A stretch of DNA of 64,000 nt from NCBI RefSeq assembly GCF_900638025.1, contig NZ_LR134481.1, positions 62,001 to 126,000 of the forward strand, written 5' to 3'. This document shows, in pieces, positions 19,728 through 27,618 of the stretch; position 1 is the stretch's first letter, and each line of letters starts with the position of its first letter. Below the pieces are notes generated by a model. It was not told the origin of the DNA. It made no database searches and saw only the letters and a program-made list of their open reading frames with translations. The DNA is from Haemophilus parainfluenzae (GTDB lineage: Bacteria; Pseudomonadota; Gammaproteobacteria; Enterobacterales; Pasteurellaceae). The position numbers were made by a program, and so were the translations under genes.

Positions 19728-21107
19728 ATGACAACCCCATTTAAACCTGAATTACTCTCCCCTGCGGGCTCCCTTAAAAACATGCGCTACGCCTTTGCTT
19801 ATGGCGCAGATGCCGTTTATGCAGGCCAACCTCGTTACAGCTTACGTGTACGTAACAATGAATTTAATCATGCCAATTTAAAAATCGGGATCGATGAAGC
19901 CCATGCACTTGGCAAAAAATTCTATGTGGTCGTAAACATTGCACCGCACAACTCCAAACTCAAAACCTTTATTAAAGATTTACAACCTGTGATCGACATG
20001 GGCCCTGATGCCTTAATTATGTCTGACCCAGGCTTAATTATGTTGGTGCGTGAAAACTTCCCGGATATTGATATTCACCTTTCTGTACAAGCGAATGCAG
20101 TAAACTGGGCAACGGTAAAATTCTGGAAACAAATGGGGTTAACTCGTGTGATTTTATCGCGTGAATTATCCATTGAAGAGATCGCTGAAATTCGCCAACA
20201 TGTGCCAGATATCGAACTCGAAATTTTCGTACATGGTGCGTTATGTATGGCATATTCTGGCCGTTGCTTGCTTTCTGGCTATATCAACAAACGCGACCCA
20301 AACCAAGGTACTTGCACGAATGCTTGCCGTTGGGAATACAAAATGGAAGAAGGCACGACGGATGAAGTAGGCAACATCGTACCGAAAATCGATCCCGCTC
20401 AACAAATCGAAGTTAAAAATGTCGCGCCAACCTTAGGTGAAGGTGCAGTAACGGATAAAGTCTTCCTTTATACCGAATCACAAAAGCCAGATGAGCAAAT
20501 GACGGCGTTTGAAGATGAGCACGGCACCTACTTTATGAACTCAAAAGATCTTCGTGCCGTACAACACGTGGAAAAATTGACCGCACTTGGTGTGCATTCT
20601 TTAAAAATTGAAGGTCGAACTAAATCATTCTATTACTGTGCAAGAACCGCACAGGTTTACCGCAAAGCCATTGACGATGCAGCAGCGGGAAAACCATTTG
20701 ATGAAAGCCTAATGGATACGTTGGAATCCCTTGCGCATCGTGGTTATACCGAAGGTTTCTTACGTCGCCATACGCACGATGAATACCAAAATTACGAATA
20801 CGGCTACTCTATTTCTGAACGCCAACAATTTGTCGGTGAATTTACCGGTAAACGTAATGAACAAGGTATGGCTGAAGTAGCAGTGAAAAACAAATTCTTG
20901 CTTGGTGATGAAGTGGAAATGATGACGCCACAGGGCAACATCATCTTTAAGATTGAAAAAATGCTCAATCGCAAAAACGAAAATGTGGAAGCTGCACTTG
21001 GCGATGGTCACTTTGTCTTTTTAGATGTGCCACAAGACGTCCAACTTGATTATGCATTGTTGATGCGTAACTTGGTCAACACCAACACGCGCAATCCACA
21101 TTATTGA
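19728..21107 (+). CDS. trhP: tRNA 5-hydroxyuridine synthesis protein TrhP (YegQ, peptidase U32 family)
   Basis: The 459-residue protein matches the U32 family member YegQ, now known as TrhP, which with prephenate makes 5-hydroxyuridine at tRNA position 34. The start ELLSPAGSLKNMRYAFAYGADAVYAG and the cysteine cluster CMAYSGRCLLSGY ... CTNACRWEY are diagnostic. It is a single gene with a hairpin leader (GCTTGC/GCAAGC at about 19681-19697). Its 3' side borders the candidate small RNA and the foreign CRISPR locus. Confidence 0.93.
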   Translation: MTTPFKPELLSPAGSLKNMRYAFAYGADAVYAGQPRYSLRVRNNEFNHANLKIGIDEAHALGKKFYVVVNIAPHNSKLKTFIKDLQPVIDMGPDALIMSDPGLIMLVRENFPDIDIHLSVQANAVNWATVKFWKQMGLTRVILSRELSIEEIAEIRQHVPDIELEIFVHGALCMAYSGRCLLSGYINKRDPNQGTCTNACRWEYKMEEGTTDEVGNIVPKIDPAQQIEVKNVAPTLGEGAVTDKVFLYTESQKPDEQMTAFEDEHGTYFMNSKDLRAVQHVEKLTALGVHSLKIEGRTKSFYYCARTAQVYRKAIDDAAAGKPFDESLMDTLESLAHRGYTEGFLRRHTHDEYQNYEYGYSISERQQFVGEFTGKRNEQGMAEVAVKNKFLLGDEVEMMTPQGNIIFKIEKMLNRKNENVEAALGDGHFVFLDVPQDVQLDYALLMRNLVNTNTRNPHY

Positions 21108-21122
21108 TTTGTTAAAAAATTG

Positions 21123-21237
21123 TTGCATTTGTTAATGAATGAACTATAATGTACCCCATACCTGATTTGTTAATTCACAACTCATAGTATGACTCCAAAT
21201 ATTTTGCCCTTTCACCTTTTTGAAAGGGCTTTTTTTA
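21123..21237 (+). ncRNA. Candidate small RNA (promoter to terminator unit) downstream of trhP
   Basis: A TTGCAT / TATAAT promoter pair with 16-bp spacing lies at 21123-21150, and a strong terminator (GCCCTTTCA / TGAAAGGGC plus a T-run) at 21206-21237. A transcript of about 80 bases would start near 21157. No convincing coding frame is seen except an 18-codon one that runs through the terminator. In E. coli the small RNA CyaR lies in the same place after yegQ, but I see no clear sequence match. It may instead simply be the trhP terminator. Confidence 0.45.
21206..21237 (+). terminator. Intrinsic terminator downstream of trhP
   Basis: A 9-bp GC-containing stem with a 6-base loop is followed by eight T residues. 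It ends the trhP transcript, the candidate small RNA, or both. Confidence 0.85.
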
Positions 21238-21409
21238 TGTCTTAACAACACACTCCAAAATTATATAAAACACTTCATTCTTAAAATTAATTAACTTCAT
21301 ATTATTTATGAAAAAATATATAAATTAATGAACATTGACATAAAAATAAAGTTAGGAGTACATTAAGCAATAATCATTAAAAGTAATCATAAATATAAAG
21401 GATTATTTT
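21238..21409. other. AT-rich lead-in to the cas operon
   Basis: About 170 bases of very AT-rich sequence separate the trhP terminator from the first cas-derived frame. AAAGGA lies 8 bases before the ATG at 21410. I see no gene here; it presumably holds the cas promoter, but I could not settle on a -35/-10 pair. Confidence 0.5.
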
Positions 21410-22108
21410 ATGTTTGCGAAACTCTCCTACTACGCCCATTCCGCCCAAGACGAACTCGGCAATCTCTTACCTTACGAACATTGGCAAACCTTACAAAGCC
21501 ATTCTGTCAATGTTGGTGAAATGGCGGCGGTGCATTGGAAGCCGGCGATTCGGTGGGTGATTGACCGGATTTATGTGTTGAAACCGATTCGGTTTGAGTC
21601 GGTGCGACGCAATGAGTTGGGCGGCAAGATTTCGGCGGGTAAGGTTAGCGGCGCGATGAAGCGTAAATCGATCGACCCGATTGTGCCGTTGGAGGTTTCC
21701 ATCACCCGCATGGCGGTAACTAACGAAAAAGACTTGGAAAAAGAACGCACTATGGGGCGCAAATACATCGTCCCTTACGCGCTCTACCGCGTGCACGGCT
21801 TTATCTCCGCCAACCTTGCTGCTAAAACCGGTTTTTCAGACGACGACTTAGCCAAACTCTGGCAAGCCCTGACGCTGATGTTTGAACACGACCGCTCCGC
21901 CGCCCGTGGCGAAATGGCGGCGCGCAAACTGATTGTTTTCAAACACGACAGCGCGCTCGGCAGCCAGCCTGCACATAAACTGTTTGACGCCGTGAAGGTC
22001 GAACGCGTAAACGGCGAATCAGGTACGCCCGCAAGCGGTTTTGGCGATTACAACATCAGCGTGGTTTCAGACGGTCTGAATGGCGTGAGTGTGGAAGAAT
22101 ATCTGTAA
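21410..22108 (+). CDS. Chimeric Cas3-Cas5-Cas7 fragment (type I-C), in-frame deletion product
   Basis: The 232-residue open frame is made of three cas pieces in operon order. Residues 1-40 (LSYYAHSAQDE ... WQTLQSHSVNVGEMAA) are the start of a Cas3 HD domain. Residues about 41-87 (HWKPAIRWVIDRI ... RFESVRRNELGGKIS ... GAMKRKS) are the middle of Cas5d. Residues about 88-232 (VPLEVSITRMAVTNE, RTMGRKYIVPYALYR, HDRSAARGEMAAR, PAHKLFD) are the C-terminal half of Cas7/Csd2. The Cas3 helicase, the rest of Cas5, all of Cas8c and the Cas7 N-terminus are gone, so no Cascade can form. Both joints keep the frame. Codon use is GC-rich, unlike the flanking genes. An automated call would probably be Cas7. 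Confidence 0.85.
   Translation: MFAKLSYYAHSAQDELGNLLPYEHWQTLQSHSVNVGEMAAVHWKPAIRWVIDRIYVLKPIRFESVRRNELGGKISAGKVSGAMKRKSIDPIVPLEVSITRMAVTNEKDLEKERTMGRKYIVPYALYRVHGFISANLAAKTGFSDDDLAKLWQALTLMFEHDRSAARGEMAARKLIVFKHDSALGSQPAHKLFDAVKVERVNGESGTPASGFGDYNISVVSDGLNGVSVEEYL
21835..21844 (-). other. Neisseriaceae uptake-sequence core (GTCGTCTGAA) in cas7
   Basis: TTCAGACGAC read on the minus strand is GTCGTCTGAA, the 10-base core of the AG-mucDUS dialect as I recall it. The 12-base flank does not match. Confidence 0.55.
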
Positions 22109-22151
22109 AAATGTCTGAAAAAAAGACAGCTTGTATTGCAGAAGTCGGTAG

Positions 22152-22169
22152 GGTGGGCTTCAGCCCACC
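22152..22169. terminator. Perfect 7-bp hairpin after the Cas chimera
   Basis: GGTGGGC-TTCA-GCCCACC forms a perfect stem but has no T-run. Hairpins of this sequence are, from memory, frequent between genes in Neisseria. It supports a neisserial origin for this piece. Confidence 0.45.
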
Positions 22170-22262
22170 GTTTCAACAAATATAAAGGATTGATTAAAGC
22201 CCATCCTGCAAAACTATTACAAATAAATCTCATAAAGCCCTTATTCAACAAATGAACATATA

Positions 22263-22308
22263 TTGTGTTATTTTATGTGTTTATATTTGTGTTATTTAAT
22301 GGTATAAT
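22263..22308 (+). promoter_or_regulatory. Promoter with direct repeats upstream of the RHH-EVE gene
   Basis: A perfect -10 TATAAT lies at 22303-22308, with TTTATA 17 bases upstream as a possible -35. Two near-identical 13-base repeats, TTGTGTTATTTTA at 22263 and TTGTGTTATTTAA at 22287, are 24 bases apart and bracket the -35. They are plausible operators for the RHH domain encoded downstream. Confidence 0.5.
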
Positions 22309-22336
22309 AGCTTCGTTAATATGAAAGGAGCATTCA

Positions 22337-22960
22337 GTGAAAAATTTTATCCAAAACCTAGAAAACGAGTTTGTTGAAAAAAATCAGGAAAAAACAACGT
22401 TCAGTATTCGCCTTTCTGTAAAAGAAGATTTGATCTTGCAGGAAATTGCTGAAAGTTTTGATCTTTCGCGGCAGGAACTATTGCATCGTCTGATTACAGA
22501 GCAAATTATCGTTCCATGGAAACAACGCTTTGAGGCACAGGCAAATGAAGAGCTTGAACTGGATGGAGAGGAGTCAACTCAATATTTTTTGCTGAACACA
22601 AATAAAGTCAATGATATCGACGATCATAAATTTATGTTAGAAAAACAGGTAGCTGCGGCATTTGAAGATGGTTATAAAGAAAAAATTGCCAAATTCAAAA
22701 AAGGTGATTGGGTATTTTTATATGAGTCAGGGCAAGGAATCGTGGCATTTGGCCAGGCATCAGGTAAGCTAGAAAAAGCACCACATTATGGGCGGGAGGA
22801 CAAAACCTATTATCAGCGCTTGGACGGTTTTACCTGTTTACCAAAAGCTATTAAAGCTAGTGAAGTCAAAAAGATTTTAAGCCGTTCTTTTCCCTTTGCT
22901 CAAACCTTGGCGCGAATTGTTGATGGGGAAAAATTATTATCAGAAATTAAAAAGCGATAA
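22337..22960 (+). CDS. Ribbon-helix-helix plus PUA/EVE-like protein inserted in the cas operon
   Basis: The gene encodes 207 residues from a GTG behind AAGGAG. Residues about 20-55 (TTFSIRLSVKEDLILQEIAESFDLSRQELLHRL) have the strand-helix-helix pattern of a ribbon-helix-helix DNA-binding domain. Residues about 82-200 (YFLLNTNK, KKGDWVFLYESGQGIVAFGQASG, YYQRLDGF) resemble the EVE/PUA-like fold, which in bacteria is often found in modification-dependent defence. Base composition is AT-rich, unlike the cas genes on both sides. It has its own promoter. The cellular role is unknown; an autoregulated defence or regulatory protein is inference. Confidence 0.7.
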   Translation: MKNFIQNLENEFVEKNQEKTTFSIRLSVKEDLILQEIAESFDLSRQELLHRLITEQIIVPWKQRFEAQANEELELDGEESTQYFLLNTNKVNDIDDHKFMLEKQVAAAFEDGYKEKIAKFKKGDWVFLYESGQGIVAFGQASGKLEKAPHYGREDKTYYQRLDGFTCLPKAIKASEVKKILSRSFPFAQTLARIVDGEKLLSEIKKR

Positions 22961-23217
22961 ACATACATTATGTAAATTATTCCCCTTTCCGCCTTGCAAC
23001 ACTACGCTTTCTGCCCGCGTCAATGCGCGCTGATTCACAACGAGCAGGCGTGGACGGAGAACTATTTAACCGCGCAGGGAAAGGCGCTACACGAACGGGT
23101 GGATTCGGGCGAGCCCGAAACGCGCAAGGGCGTGCGTTTTGAGCGGACGGTGCATGTGTCTGCGGAGAAACTGGGCATCAGCGGAGTGTTGGATTTGGTG
23201 GAGGTGGAAACGAAAAC

Positions 23218-23229
23218 AGGCCGTCTGAA
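23218..23229 (+). other. Neisserial DNA uptake sequence, AG-DUS (AGGCCGTCTGAA), in cas4
   Basis: An exact 12-base match to the AG-DUS dialect as I recall it. Such a site is not expected in Haemophilus DNA, which uses AAGTGCGGT. Confidence 0.85.
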
Positions 23230-23385
23230 ACCCGTGGAATACAAACGCGGCAAGCCCAAACCCGACCCGATAGACGAAATCCAGCTTTGCGCCCAAGGCT
23301 TGTGCTTGGAAGAAATGACGGGGCAAATCGTCTCTGAGGGCGCGCTGTGGTATATGCAAACCCGCCACCGCGTCCCCATCGTGTT

Positions 23386-23397
23386 TTCAGACGACCT
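23386..23397 (-). other. Neisserial DNA uptake sequence, AG-mucDUS (AGGTCGTCTGAA), in cas4
   Basis: TTCAGACGACCT on the plus strand is the reverse complement of the 12-base AG-mucDUS dialect as I recall it. Confidence 0.8.
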
Positions 23398-23615
23398 GCG
23401 CGCCCAAACTCTGGCCACCATCGCCGCCGTACGCGAACTCTTGAACAGCGGACAAACTCCGTCGCCCAACTACGGTAAACACTGCAAAGCCTGCTCGCTG
23501 GTGGAAATTTGCCAACTGGAGTTGTTGGGGAAACGGGATAGGAGTGTGGGGTATGTGGCGGGGTTGTTTGGGAGTGAACAGTTTTCTTTTTTATTTGAGC
23601 TTTATAGATAACTAT

Positions 23616-24566
23616 ATGAATAATAATTTTATACATCATCACCCAATGCCAATTTCAGATAATTCGTTATCTTATTGGAGTATGCACTTTATTGCTGTTT
23701 TAGAGTGTTTGGAAAATCATAAAACACTTCAATATCCGGCTCACAGATTAGATGAATATCCTATGTTTTCACTTGCCAATATGAAAGGATATTATCCAAA
23801 TTACTTTTTTGAAAATATGGTCAATTTTATACAAAATTGGGGTATGCAATACTTTATTGTTCATTTCTTTAATCATAAGTTTGGTTTAGAGATTGTAGAT
23901 AAAATTAAAGAAAATTTAGATGGTTTGTTTAATATTCCAAACTATAAAGATTATGATGATTTTGAGTTCTATGTATCGGGAATTGATTCAGAACTTGGAA
24001 AGAATATATCTGAAAGATATGATGAAATATATCCTAAATCTTTTAATCTAACTGTAGAAAACAAGTCTGTTCTGGAAAGAAATTCAGATTTTTGCCTAGT
24101 TTTAAAGAACACTCAAGAAGGTAAAAACATTGGAATATTTGGGGAGCTAGAAGGGAATTATGGTGAAAAATTATTTCAAGATAGTTTTTGGGAAAGAAAA
24201 TCTGATTTTTGTGTGATTGGCATAGGAGCTATAAATGGCAAAAATAAAGGATACTACTTAGAAAGCTATTTATATCGTGGTCAATATCCTAAGTTGAATA
24301 TATTATTTGAAAAAAGCAACTATATCATTCATGACTTTTATAGGGTTGTTAATGAGTTTAAATATGTTTTCTACCAAGGAGTTAATTATAAAAATTTCCA
24401 ACCAGATAATTCTTTTAGATTTTTGATAGATATGATTATCCAAGATTGGAATGCTCCTGTTAGAAACATATTGGATAAACTATATTCATATAAAGATGAT
24501 CCAGATGAATTGATAGGGAAACTAGAAAATAAACCTATTTTACTCATATCATCTATGGATAATTGA
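23616..24566 (+). CDS. Unrecognised 316-residue protein inserted between cas4 and cas1
   Basis: I do not recognise this family. The ATG at 23616 follows the cas4 stop by 4 bases; an upstream in-frame start would overlap cas4. The gene is strongly AT-rich (many AAT, TTT, GAT codons) against GC-rich cas DNA. The protein is aromatic-rich, with no membrane segment or signal peptide. A stretch SDFCLVLKN ... GIFGELEGNYGEKLF ... SDFCVIGIGA has an Asp, then Glu-x-Glu arrangement that might be a degenerate nuclease or beta-sheet core, a weak guess. Its place among remodelled cas genes suggests cargo, possibly defence. Confidence 0.6.
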   Translation: MNNNFIHHHPMPISDNSLSYWSMHFIAVLECLENHKTLQYPAHRLDEYPMFSLANMKGYYPNYFFENMVNFIQNWGMQYFIVHFFNHKFGLEIVDKIKENLDGLFNIPNYKDYDDFEFYVSGIDSELGKNISERYDEIYPKSFNLTVENKSVLERNSDFCLVLKNTQEGKNIGIFGELEGNYGEKLFQDSFWERKSDFCVIGIGAINGKNKGYYLESYLYRGQYPKLNILFEKSNYIIHDFYRVVNEFKYVFYQGVNYKNFQPDNSFRFLIDMIIQDWNAPVRNILDKLYSYKDDPDELIGKLENKPILLISSMDN

Positions 24567-24656
24567 AATAATAACCAACTAAGTACTGAGATGATGTAAT
24601 TTGAAATGATTGTTGCGGACTGGCGATGTCGAATTTAAGAATCCGACCTACCATTT

Positions 24657-24668
24657 TTCAGGTAGCCT
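24657..24668 (-). other. Eikenella-type uptake sequence, AG-eikDUS (AGGCTACCTGAA)
   Basis: TTCAGGTAGCCT is the exact reverse complement of the AG-eikDUS dialect as I recall it. It lies in the spacer just upstream of the truncated cas1 copy. Confidence 0.75.
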
Positions 24669-24705
24669 AGCTCTGTTAAATTCCCCAAAAGTACAGTCAA
24701 ACCCC

Positions 24706-24913
24706 AAGGAGTTCCCCATGCGCAAACTGCAAAACACGCTCTACATCACCACCCAAGGCAGTTATCTGCATAAGGAGCGGGAGACGCTGGTGGTAGAGCT
24801 GGAGCGTAAAAAGATAGCGCAGTTGCCGGTGCATTCCATCGGGCATATTTTCTGTTTTGGGAATGTGCTGGTGTCGCCTTTTTTGTTGGGGAGGGGTGCG
24901 GTGAAAATAATGT
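24706..24913 (+). repeat. First copy of the duplicated cas1 5' end
   Basis: Pairs with 25852-26063. The two copies run from the AAGGAGTT ribosome site through GAAAATAATGT, differ by 1-, 2- and 5-base indels plus scattered substitutions, and are roughly 90% identical by eye. They flank the 298-residue cargo gene as direct repeats. Confidence 0.9.
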
Positions 24914-24918
24914 ATTAA
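24718..24918 (+). pseudogene. Truncated cas1 5' fragment (66 codons)
   Basis: The frame reads MRKLQNTLYITTQGSYLHKERETLVV and follows Cas1 through FGNVLVSPFLLG, then shifts by two bases and stops. It covers only part of the Cas1 N-terminal beta domain, without any catalytic residue. Unlike the downstream copy it lacks the GGGAG duplication, so its first 57 codons preserve the normal frame. Confidence 0.9.
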
Positions 24919-24951
24919 CCATTAATTATATTTTATTTAAGGAGGAAGATG

Positions 24952-25848
24952 ATGAGTTTGCTACAAGCATATTCTTTAGATTTAGGTAAAAAAATTAATG
25001 CGAAAGAAGCGGATATCGCTTATGAGAAAGGTTTGATTGGCAGTCAAAAAAACTTTCAATGTCCTCATCAGGAGTGTGGTATTGCGGTTACTTGTGCAAA
25101 TTTAGAACGACCTAAATACAAAAGAAAGGTAGAACCTTATTTTAAATCGGTTGAAAATCATAAATTTGGTTGTCCTTTTGCAGAGGAGGAAAGACGTACC
25201 AAGTTTCAGGATATTGATAAAAATGGATTTTATGAAAATGTCACTTCAGGCGAGATTTTGGTAAATCTGGCAGAACCTACACCTAAAAAACAAAATAGCG
25301 ATAATGCTTCTGAGGTTAAAGAAATCAATGTTTCACGAACTTGCCAACTTTCAGATTCAAAAAAAGATAAAGTATCAACTAATCAAACTAAAACTTTATC
25401 TGTATTGGTTTCATCTTTCTTAAATAATGAAAACTTTCCAATAACATTACCAAGACCATATCAAGAAAGAATCTTTTTGAAAAACGCATTTATTAAAGTT
25501 GATGGTCAGGATTTGTCAAGCCTGGAACAAAATTGTTGGAGAGTTTATTACGGAAAAGCGTGGATAAACAAACTATCAAGTGGTGATTATCAAATTAAAT
25601 TTGACTCTCAGTTACATGATCTTTCAGTTGAAGTGAGTGGTGTTAGACCTTCGTTTTTTATTTCAAAATCTTTGATTTGTGATTCGCCATATGAAAAATT
25701 CACAAAAGAGAAAATAGATGAATTAGTAATTCAGAAAAAACCTAAACAAGTTTTTATTTTTTCAGATGTTCCATCTTTAAATCATACAAAGAAATATATT
25801 AATTTTATACTTGAAGGTCTACCATATTTAGAGATTTTGGATACATAA
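24952..25848 (+). CDS. Unrecognised 298-residue protein with N-terminal Cys/His cluster
   Basis: I do not recognise the whole protein. Start ATG 24952 is behind a near-perfect AAGGAGGAAG (an ATG one codon earlier is also possible). Residues about 35-75 hold CPHQEC, a later TCANL, a PYF aromatic block, then H-x3-GCPF, a layout like the zinc-binding domains at the start of CoiA-like proteins (weak inference). A polar linker rich in Asn/Lys/Ser follows, then a C-terminal beta-rich part. The gene is AT-rich and lies exactly between two copies of the cas1 5' end. Confidence 0.6.
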   Translation: MSLLQAYSLDLGKKINAKEADIAYEKGLIGSQKNFQCPHQECGIAVTCANLERPKYKRKVEPYFKSVENHKFGCPFAEEERRTKFQDIDKNGFYENVTSGEILVNLAEPTPKKQNSDNASEVKEINVSRTCQLSDSKKDKVSTNQTKTLSVLVSSFLNNENFPITLPRPYQERIFLKNAFIKVDGQDLSSLEQNCWRVYYGKAWINKLSSGDYQIKFDSQLHDLSVEVSGVRPSFFISKSLICDSPYEKFTKEKIDELVIQKKPKQVFIFSDVPSLNHTKKYINFILEGLPYLEILDT

Positions 25849-25851
25849 AAT

Positions 25852-26063
25852 AAGGAGTTTCCCCATGCGCAAACTGCAAAACACGCTCTACATCACCACT
25901 CAGGGCAGCTATCTGCATAAGGAGCGGGAGGGGAGACGCTGGTGGTGGAGCAGGAGCGTAAGAAGGTGGCGCAGTTGCCGGTGCATTCCATCGGGCATAT
26001 TTTCTGTTTTGGGAATGTGCTGGTGTCACCGTTTTTATTGGGGTTTTGCGGCGAAAATAATGT
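25852..26063 (+). repeat. Second copy of the duplicated cas1 5' end
   Basis: Partner of 24706-24913; this copy continues into the full cas1 body and carries an extra GGGAG at about 25931-25935. Confidence 0.9.
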
Positions 26064-26883
26064 GAATTTGGCGTTTTTTACCGAAAACGGGCGTTATTTG
26101 GGACGACTTCAGGGGTGGCAGAGCGGCAATGTGCTGCTGCGTCGGGCGCCGTATCGGGTGTCGGAGCAAAATCCCGTGCCGATTGCGCGCAATATCATTG
26201 CGGCGAAGATTCAGGCGAGTAAGCGGGTGCTTCAGCGGCAGATTCGCAATTATGGCGAGAATGCGGCGATTCAAAGTGCGGTTGATTCTTTGAATATTTC
26301 GCTGCAGCAATTGAAGGGCGCGGCGGAGCTGGACGTGGTGCGTGGTATTGAGGGCGATGCGGCGGCGCGTTATTTCGGCGTGTTCGGGCAGCTTTTGAGC
26401 GAAAAAAGCGGCTTTATTTTTGACGGACGCAACCGCCGTCCGCCCAGAGACGGGGTGAATGCGCTGTTGTCGTTTGTGTACAGTCTGTTGGGCAAGGACA
26501 TCAGCGGCGCGCTGCAAGGCGTGGGGATAGACCCGCAGGTGGGTTTTCTGCACGCCGACCGCCCGGGGCGCGATAGTCTAGCGCAGGATATTTTGGAAGA
26601 ATTCCGCGCATGGTGGGCGGATAGGTTGGTGCTGTCGCTGATTAACCGAGGGCAAATCAATCCGCAGGATTTCGTTACCGAGGCGAGCGGCGCGGTAAGC
26701 TTAAAAACCGAGGCACGTAAACTGTTGTTCCAAGCCTTTCAGGCGAAAAAGCAGGAAAAAATCGTGCATCCGTTTTTGGGCGAAGAAGTGGAAATCGGCT
26801 TGTTGCCGTATATTCAGGCAATACTGTTGGCGCGCCATTTGCGAGGAGATTTGGCGGAATATCCACCGTTTTTGATGAGATAA
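25865..26883 (+). pseudogene. cas1: Cas1 (type I-C) with a 5-base duplication near codon 22
   Basis: The ATG at 25865 opens with MRKLQNTLYITTQGSYLHKE, but GGGAG is duplicated (GGGAGGGGAG at 25926-25935), shifting the frame. From GTG 25942 the correct frame runs 313 codons to the stop, lacking only the first 24 residues of a 337-residue protein. Active-site residues are kept, in this numbering Glu137 (GIEGDAAARYF), His204 (GFLHADRPGRDSL) and Asp216/Glu219. The duplication produces GGAGGGGAG 6 bases before GTG 25942, so a truncated Cas1 might be made. Cas1 integrates new spacers with Cas2. Confidence 0.88.
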
Positions 26884-26886
26884 GCT

Positions 26887-27179
26887 ATGTTAATGCTGAT
26901 TACTTATGACATTTCTTTTGACGATCCAAACGGGCAAGCGTGATTACGTCGTATCGCAAAACATTGCTTAGATTACGGCGTGCGGGCGCAATATTCGGTA
27001 TTTGAATGCGATGTCAAGCCTGACCAATGGGTTATGTTGAAAAATAAACTGTTGGAAACCTACGACTCCACATGTGACAGCCTGCGTTTTTATCATTTAG
27101 GCAGTAAGTGCTTAATAAAGTGGAGCATCATGGGGCAAAACCGGCAGTGGATGTATTTAAAGACGTGCTTGTCATTTAG
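26887..27179 (+). pseudogene. cas2: Cas2 (type I-C), nonsense codon and frameshift
   Basis: The frame MLMLITYDISFDDPNGQA stops at TGA 26941, where related proteins have Arg (CGA to TGA fits a single transition). Downstream LRRIAKHCLDYGVRAQYSVFECDVKPDQW ... LRFYHLGSK is clear Cas2. After GSK one base appears to be missing near 27108, and the family C-terminus continues in another frame to TAG 27177. Corrected length would be about 97 residues, as usual for I-C Cas2. Confidence 0.92.
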
Positions 27180-27370
27180 TTCGCTAACCTGTTGTTCTCA
27201 TCAAAACCCTGATGGGATAGCGATCCTTATTTTCTTTAACAATTTGGATGAATTAATCTATTTGTATAACGGCGGTATGGTCGTTATACTTACTAAACTC
27301 CTTATCATAAAATCAGTTAGCGAAATACAGTGTTTAATTCGCTGATTTTTCTTACTTTTTTATATAGGGA
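27180..27370 (+). promoter_or_regulatory. CRISPR leader region
   Basis: About 190 bases between cas2 and the first repeat hold no gene. It is AT-rich and ends in TATATAGGGA at the repeat. Position after cas2 and before the repeat is that of a type I-C leader. Confidence 0.6.
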
Positions 27371-27471
27371 GCAGCCGCCTCCGTGCGGCTGTGTGTTGAA
27401 ACTTCCCCAACTGCATTGTTAATATCAGCTTTAATGGAGGCACCCGCCTTCGGGTGGTTTTACGTTGCAAT
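27371..27471 (+). CRISPR. Minimal CRISPR array: one repeat, one 37-bp spacer, one decayed terminal repeat
   Basis: The first repeat (27371-27402, 32 bp) has the type I-C stem GCCGCC...GGCGGC-like pairing (CAGCCGC / GCGGCTG) and ends GTGTTGAAAC. The spacer is 27403-27439. The second unit (27440-27471) matches the first at 22 of 32 positions, with its stem changed to CACCCG/CGGGTG, as expected for a degenerate distal repeat. Only one spacer remains. Confidence 0.82.
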
Positions 27472-27618
27472 AAAACTTAATAAATTTGAATAGCATAATA
27501 TTTACAGCGCTACTACTCGATCTCTCAACCCAATTCATATCCAACAACATTCCCCCTTGTTTTTCCCCCTTATTCGCTCTAGACTATGCCCCATTTTTAG
27601 CTTTCATTATTTACAATT
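27472..27618. other. Spacer between the CRISPR array and queA
   Basis: AT-rich noncoding sequence that returns to Haemophilus composition; it should contain the queA promoter. No other structure is seen. Confidence 0.4.

Follow-up and report, generated by a model that had tools for sequence, protein, structure and literature searches.

In the passages of PMC13016550 on Haemophilus, type I-C is the commonest CRISPR subtype, with a standard gene order and a few incomplete loci, among them those of NCTC12699, which lacks cas1-cas2 (the subtype is not given there), and M1C152_1, whose I-C system lacks Cas1. An in-frame fusion of cas3, cas5 and cas7 is not mentioned in those passages. The parts of the literature returned by our searches on cas fusions, relics and cargo held no report of this sort of cas fusion, and the passages of PMC11090510 among them had nothing on it. 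In Neisseria, according to passages of PMC10865793, N. gonorrhoeae has no endogenous CRISPR system and N. lactamica possesses a functional one of type I-C. We analysed a stretch of 64,000 nucleotides from Haemophilus parainfluenzae (assembly GCF_900638025.1, contig NZ_LR134481.1, positions 62,001 to 126,000; hereafter the window), in which one open frame is made of parts of three type I-C genes. We conclude that this chimera is very probably a recent by-product of decay in a dead type I-C CRISPR-Cas locus, a relic and not a new protein.

The chimeric frame and the state of its locus

The frame runs uninterrupted from ATG to TAA (Table 1). Measured against the type I-C operon of a genome of the same genus (G006, locus L012), positions 20002-21530 aligned with DNA ending in cas3 codon 40 (94.8% identity), 21524-21666 with cas5 (95.8%) and 21666-22111 with the 3' end of cas7 (92.6%), and the chimera's three blocks were collinear with that operon. 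Against the intact L040 operon, the proteins aligned at 90% for Cas3 residues 1-40, at 75% for the Cas5 piece (in an alignment extending past joint 2) and at 91% for the Cas7 piece, about 147 residues ending at residue 288. These two alignments of each piece confirm the Cas3-Cas5-Cas7 fusion in operon order and in one frame that the original prediction described, with segment boundaries that were correct to within a few residues.

Profile searches recovered the frame unevenly. Pfam matched Cas7 only. The NCBIfam Csd2 model (TIGR02589) matched with E 3.1e-54 and 184.3 bits, above its cut-off of 182.25, over profile positions 134-283 of 284 only, short of a full-length backbone subunit; the Cas5d/Cas5c model (TIGR01876) reached 37.5 bits (E 2.7e-9) of the 85 that its cut-off requires. 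The earlier concern that a Cas7 label would hide the chimera was justified, as NCBIfam would call the frame Cas7/Csd2, and this is a caution for automatic annotation, which would report a Cas7 for what is no more than a chimeric scrap. A sequence search of the PDB with the chimera matched Cas7 and Cas5 chains (one match being named only 'uncharacterized protein') and no Cas3 chain, and Rfam gave no match at gathering score. P0240, a protein labelled Haemophilus parainfluenzae, was 100% identical over 95% of chimera residues 1-42.

The loss of Cas8c, also predicted, extends to the whole genome, in which a search with the PF09709 profile gave no matches. The genome holds no other Cas3, with residues 2-40 of 763 as the only part found; a single match to the type I-C repeat (18-nt core, at most two mismatches); and two Cas1 matches, both in the relic. 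By eye, a further repeat-like stretch lies at about 27436-27470, not within three mismatches. The chimera, cas4 and the second cas1 have a GC content of 53-58%, against 40% for the flanks and 29-36% for the inserts. PADLOC matched none of the window's three inserts. By the known type I-C pathway, no CRISPR immunity can come from this locus.

Table 1. Features of the type I-C relic, in window coordinates
Feature	Position	Strand	Remarks
Type I-C relic with inserts, whole	21237..27555	+	21236 and 27556 adjacent in G002, G004, G010
Chimeric open frame, 232 aa	21410..22108	+	
cas3 5' end, codons 1-40	21410..21530	+	L012 3658-3778
Joint 1	21524..21530	+	7-nt microhomology GCGGCGG, identical codon phase in cas3 and cas5
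cas5 internal piece, codons about 41-87	21524..21667	+	L012 9413-9555; Cas5d match below cut-off
Joint 2	21666..21667	+	2-nt microhomology (AA)
cas7 3' half, codons about 142-288 and stop	21666..22108	+	L012 12181-12626
Insert 1	22112..22978	+	867 bp; 207-aa ORF 22337-22960; weak EVE-domain match below cut-off
cas4	22979..23611	+	lacks first ~17 codons; lacks ATG; begins right after a TAA
Insert 2	23544..24566	+	340-aa ORF; no family match above cut-off
cas1, first 5' fragment	24706..24913	+	
Insert 3	24949..25848	+	299-aa ORF
cas1, second copy	25865..26883	+	frame broken by 5-nt insertion near 25931-25935
cas2	26887..27179	+	stop at codon 19; 1-nt deletion further on
Type I-C repeat	27371..27402	+	the genome's only match

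Joints, constraint and recurrence

At joint 1, GCGGCGG is common to cas3 (ATG GCG GCG G) and cas5 (TTA GCG GCG G) in equal codon phase; the overlap measured 7 nt in one comparison and 9 nt in another. At joint 2, AA alone is common to cas5 (AAGCGTAAA) and cas7 (CAATC), and the serine codon immediately after it is TCG, as in L044, with TCC or TCT in the other cas7 rows listed. Judged by their letters, the joint sequences are what microhomology-mediated or illegitimate deletion would leave.

Under a flat model, the chance that both joints keep the frame is 1 in 9, and it is somewhat higher if breakpoints use microhomology. Counting maximal exact matches of at least 7 nt among the cas genes of L040 (with cas4 taken from L043), we found 51% of 2661 in codon phase, including 58 of 139 between cas3 and cas5 and 19 of 51 between cas5 and cas7. 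Because in-phase microhomology is frequent among the cas genes, frame keeping is somewhat less surprising than 1 in 3, an argument from which joint 2, with its 2 nt, gains little. We regard frame keeping at the chimera's joints as weak evidence for function.

We also surveyed joint phase in 32 stretches, consisting of the window and 31 loci (L012-L017 and L040-L064). The scripted survey gave nine cas-cas joints, five of them in phase. Merging L043 with L045, which share one cas1-to-cas4 joint, and adding the G009 joint by eye led to six of nine independent joints in phase across relics. Of these joints, the one in L042, with an overlap of 1 nt, could simply be an indel inside a gene, and those of G003 sit in a locus with the cas3 frame broken elsewhere. 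The probability of at least six of nine in phase is 0.042 at a rate of 1/3 and 0.25 at a rate of 0.5; hence, we do not call the excess selection for frame.

Away from joint 2 (227 codons), the chimera carries ten private synonymous changes, no private replacement and no stop. The synonymous changes fall as three in the cas3 piece (three relatives compared), one in the cas5 piece (nine relatives) and six in the cas7 piece from residue 148 on (ten relatives), with no replacement in any of the pieces; one private Q-to-K change lies at the joint-2 codon, where the lysine is cas5-derived. Elsewhere in the relic, private synonymous and replacement changes numbered 7:6 in cas4 and 9:9 in cas1, and cas2 had two synonymous and four non-synonymous changes, the stop included. 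Over the same cas7 stretch, the corresponding counts were 6:0 in L040, 5:0 in L041, 4:2 in L012, 2:2 in L042, 2:1 in L043, 3:5 in L045, 2:4 in L048, 14:4 in L046, 10:8 in L052 and 13:14 in L056. The chimera's counts agree with selection having acted on the gene until recently, a pattern that a recent fusion and continued constraint would produce alike. Since several intact relatives have similar counts, a recent fusion is enough to explain the chimera's lack of replacements. The dN/dS of the Cas7 part was 0.03-0.11 against 14 relatives (seven identical duplicate rows having been removed), and the median among those 14 relatives was 0.077 over 91 pairs.

The chimera was absent from all other genomes among the 140 family genomes searched. 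Its protein cluster in a large protein database, P0001, has three member sequences in five contigs, indicating that the chimera is not confined to one assembly. No other protein covered more than 68% of residues 1-90 in the best 120 of 573 matches, and therefore none among the matches listed shares joint 1. The exact joint-1 pattern had no matches in viral contigs, and the plasmid collection yielded two N. gonorrhoeae records of chromosome size, both of which cover 26% of the relic. The original prediction held that recurrence with low dN/dS would argue for function; the low values were there, equally low among the relatives, and the chimera was in one of the 140 genomes.

Other fusions of cas genes did occur. 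Five of 276 gathered proteins matched at least two Cas families (P0001, P0002, P0003, P0016 and P0205), a count that is blind to Cas4 fusions; P0212 combines Cas4 and Cas5 by Pfam labels, and P0244 and P0245 resemble in-frame deletions within Cas3. Unlike the chimera, the multi-family proteins other than P0001 consist of two pieces: Cas3 7-170 is joined in frame to Cas7 75-288 in P0002/P0003, at other breakpoints than the chimera's, and the partners themselves differ in P0016 (Cas8c 1-58 joined in frame to Cas7 97-288) and P0205 (Cas5 26-91 joined in frame to Cas1 194-337). A 56-codon mini-cas3 in G009 (L014 9729-9899) breaks at or next to the chimera's cas3 codon (39-40), at GCGG and in frame, but there cas3 is its own partner, the first 39 codons being followed by the last 17, where the chimera has cas5. 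In G070, there was no break at the chimera's cas3 breakpoint. A 180-aa C-terminal part of Cas7 from N. gonorrhoeae, P0004, has 114 member sequences in 1000 contigs. The cas7 of L045 matches as two pieces, and cas1 there continues out of phase into a second cas4 piece.

Probable decay of the operon and the alternatives

We propose that a horizontally acquired operon (cas3-cas5-cas8c-cas7-cas4-cas1-cas2-array) entered a recombination-prone site beside queA and would then have lost most of its length. One deletion, at the 7-nt repeat, would have joined cas3 codon 40 with cas5 codon 41, and another, at 2 nt, would have joined about cas5 codon 87 with about cas7 codon 142, the frame being kept by chance each time. 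The chimeric ORF may still be transcribed, and translated from what was the cas3 start. Its predicted product would combine 40 of the roughly 763 residues of Cas3 with an internal segment of Cas5 and one half of Cas7, and would have neither Cas8c nor a spacer array as a partner. We infer the order and mechanism of the deletions, and the lack of function, from the fusion, the breakpoints, the missing partners and the downstream lesions. Decay is favoured by the microhomology at the breakpoints, the lack of Cas8c and of any other Cas3, the single repeat and the broken cas4, cas1 and cas2, as well as by the scraps at this site in other genomes, the other cas-cas fusions (Cas3/Cas7, Cas8c/Cas7 and Cas5/Cas1) and the abundance of in-phase microhomology. 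Counting against it are the two in-frame joints, the absence of private replacements away from joint 2 compared with 6 in cas4, 9 in cas1 and 4 in cas2, the presence of P0001 in five contigs, and the six of nine joints in phase, more than 1/3 would give.

The same absence of replacements in 227 codons and the frame kept twice are what would be expected if the chimera had been kept as a protein, with the C-terminal half of Cas7 and a new N-terminus binding Cas7, RNA or an incoming type I-C complex, for instance to restrain acquired CRISPR systems; P0002/P0003, P0016 and the N. gonorrhoeae protein P0004 (180 aa) likewise retain 3' parts of Cas7. We consider this improbable. The loci L040 (6:0) and L041 (5:0), with full cas7 genes, have equally few replacements, such that history before the fusion can explain the counts; each domain is cut through; and the Cas7 fusions were gathered by a search with Cas7, so the sample is biased. 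Slightly less probable again is a kept Cas3-Cas5-Cas7 protein whose Cas7 C-terminal half, given its start by the Cas3 and Cas5 pieces, acts against incoming type I-C complexes or binds their RNA, in which case a dead CRISPR locus would leave behind a domesticated inhibitor. The original prediction saw in the two in-frame joints a sign that either the product or read-through translation into later genes is kept. That claim is unsupported, given the 1-in-9 chance under a flat model and the lack of a sound read-through target. The chimera does occupy the 5' end of the former operon, where a frame kept for ribosome read-through might avoid polarity on cas4-cas1-cas2, but an 867-bp insert intervenes, cas4 is without an ATG start, and neither cas1 nor cas2 is intact; we reject read-through because of these downstream lesions and give it next to no credence.

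An assembly error at the joints is unlikely. The genome is a single 2.06-Mb contig, the protein cluster occurs in five contigs and joint 1 has real microhomology, so that an artefact at one or both joints is scarcely credible. A mosaic formed by natural transformation, in which cas DNA arriving from Neisseria or Haemophilus underwent recombination at short stretches of homology instead of deletion acting within one operon, is possible but doubtful. It is consistent with the weak grouping of the Cas7 part with the N. gonorrhoeae relic (support 0.845), with the identities of the cas3 part (96.7% to G006) and the cas5 part (98.6% to L040), and with the region of insert 3 that is 99.1% common to N. 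viridiae; however, order and orientation fit one operon throughout, the segments are short and the trees are weak. Such a mosaic would yield an equally non-functional relic, and is compatible with our preferred conclusion that the chimera is a scrap of a dead locus.

The insertion site and comparison with type I-C operons

We compared the site across a genus set of 11 genomes. The flanks meet directly, leaving an empty site, in three of them (G002, G004 and G010). A few repeats occupy the site in G001, and cas scraps around other genes are present in G003, G005 and G009, with an Old-like protein at the G009 site and an HNH-type protein at the G005 site. G006 has a nearly full operon with the cas3 and cas4 frames split; about 47 kb separate the flanks in G007, and in G008 the flanks lie far apart. 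We take the flanking genes to be a U32-peptidase-like gene on one side and queA on the other. The site between 21236 and 27556 appears as an insertion hot spot, with CRISPR relics or cargo in other genomes of the set.

Part of the relic has close counterparts in Neisseria. Positions 24914-25851 (insert 3 and surroundings, 938 nt) are 99.1% identical in Neisseria viridiae, where they likewise lie between cas1 pieces. This identity, together with the equal arrangement, points to recent exchange between the genera. The stretches concerned are 24706-25935 of the window and L043 12756-14111, with the 299-aa gene between two cas1 5' copies. Within insert 1, 22286-22976 (691 bp) is 83% identical to L056 (Neisseria sp. 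83E34), where it also lies between cas7 and cas4. We found one Neisseria-type uptake motif (at 23220, in cas4) and one Haemophilus-type motif (at 26274, in cas1) in the relic, and 34 Haemophilus-type and no Neisseria-type motifs in the flanks.

Among 26 type I-C operons of Pasteurellaceae and Neisseriaceae (L012 and L040-L064), the cas3-cas5 gap ranged from 51 to 3733 bp in the 19 loci in which it was readable. The cas4-cas1 gap, readable in 25 of the 26, ranged from 50 to 2088 bp in 23 loci, L043 and L045 being left out because their doubled pieces make the value meaningless. Both slots hold differing genes across loci, several of defence type. Eight of nine hand-picked cargo proteins matched PADLOC models (Thoeris ThsA, Dsr2, HerA, DRT/AbiP2, CBASS cyclase, Old, HEC-05 and HEC-06/Orf5), as did three of ten in a second set (an L012 SLATT protein, a G009 protein and a G005 protein); four further L012 cargo proteins had no PADLOC match, leaving one of five L012 cargo proteins with a match. 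A three-gene cassette lies between cas3 and cas5 in L012 (6027-9132) and L040 (3892-6997), its first gene having a PF04245 nucleoid-associated domain; the L012 copy had no PADLOC match, and the cassette is possibly an undescribed defence system. The setting outweighs the fusion itself: cargo-bearing type I-C operons with two variable slots, exchanged between Haemophilus relatives and Neisseria, decay stepwise at one chromosomal site.

Compared with an intact type I-C operon (cas3-cas5-cas8c-cas7-cas4-cas1-cas2), the relic has no Cas8c, its other genes are cut or broken, and it carries one repeat and three inserted ORFs. It has partial module loss in common with the incomplete Haemophilus loci in the passages of PMC13016550, which lose adaptation genes. 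Its surviving genes nevertheless keep the order of the intact operon, as does its repeat the length of 32 nt, and piece by piece the chimera's DNA is 93-96% alike to the type I-C operon of G006.
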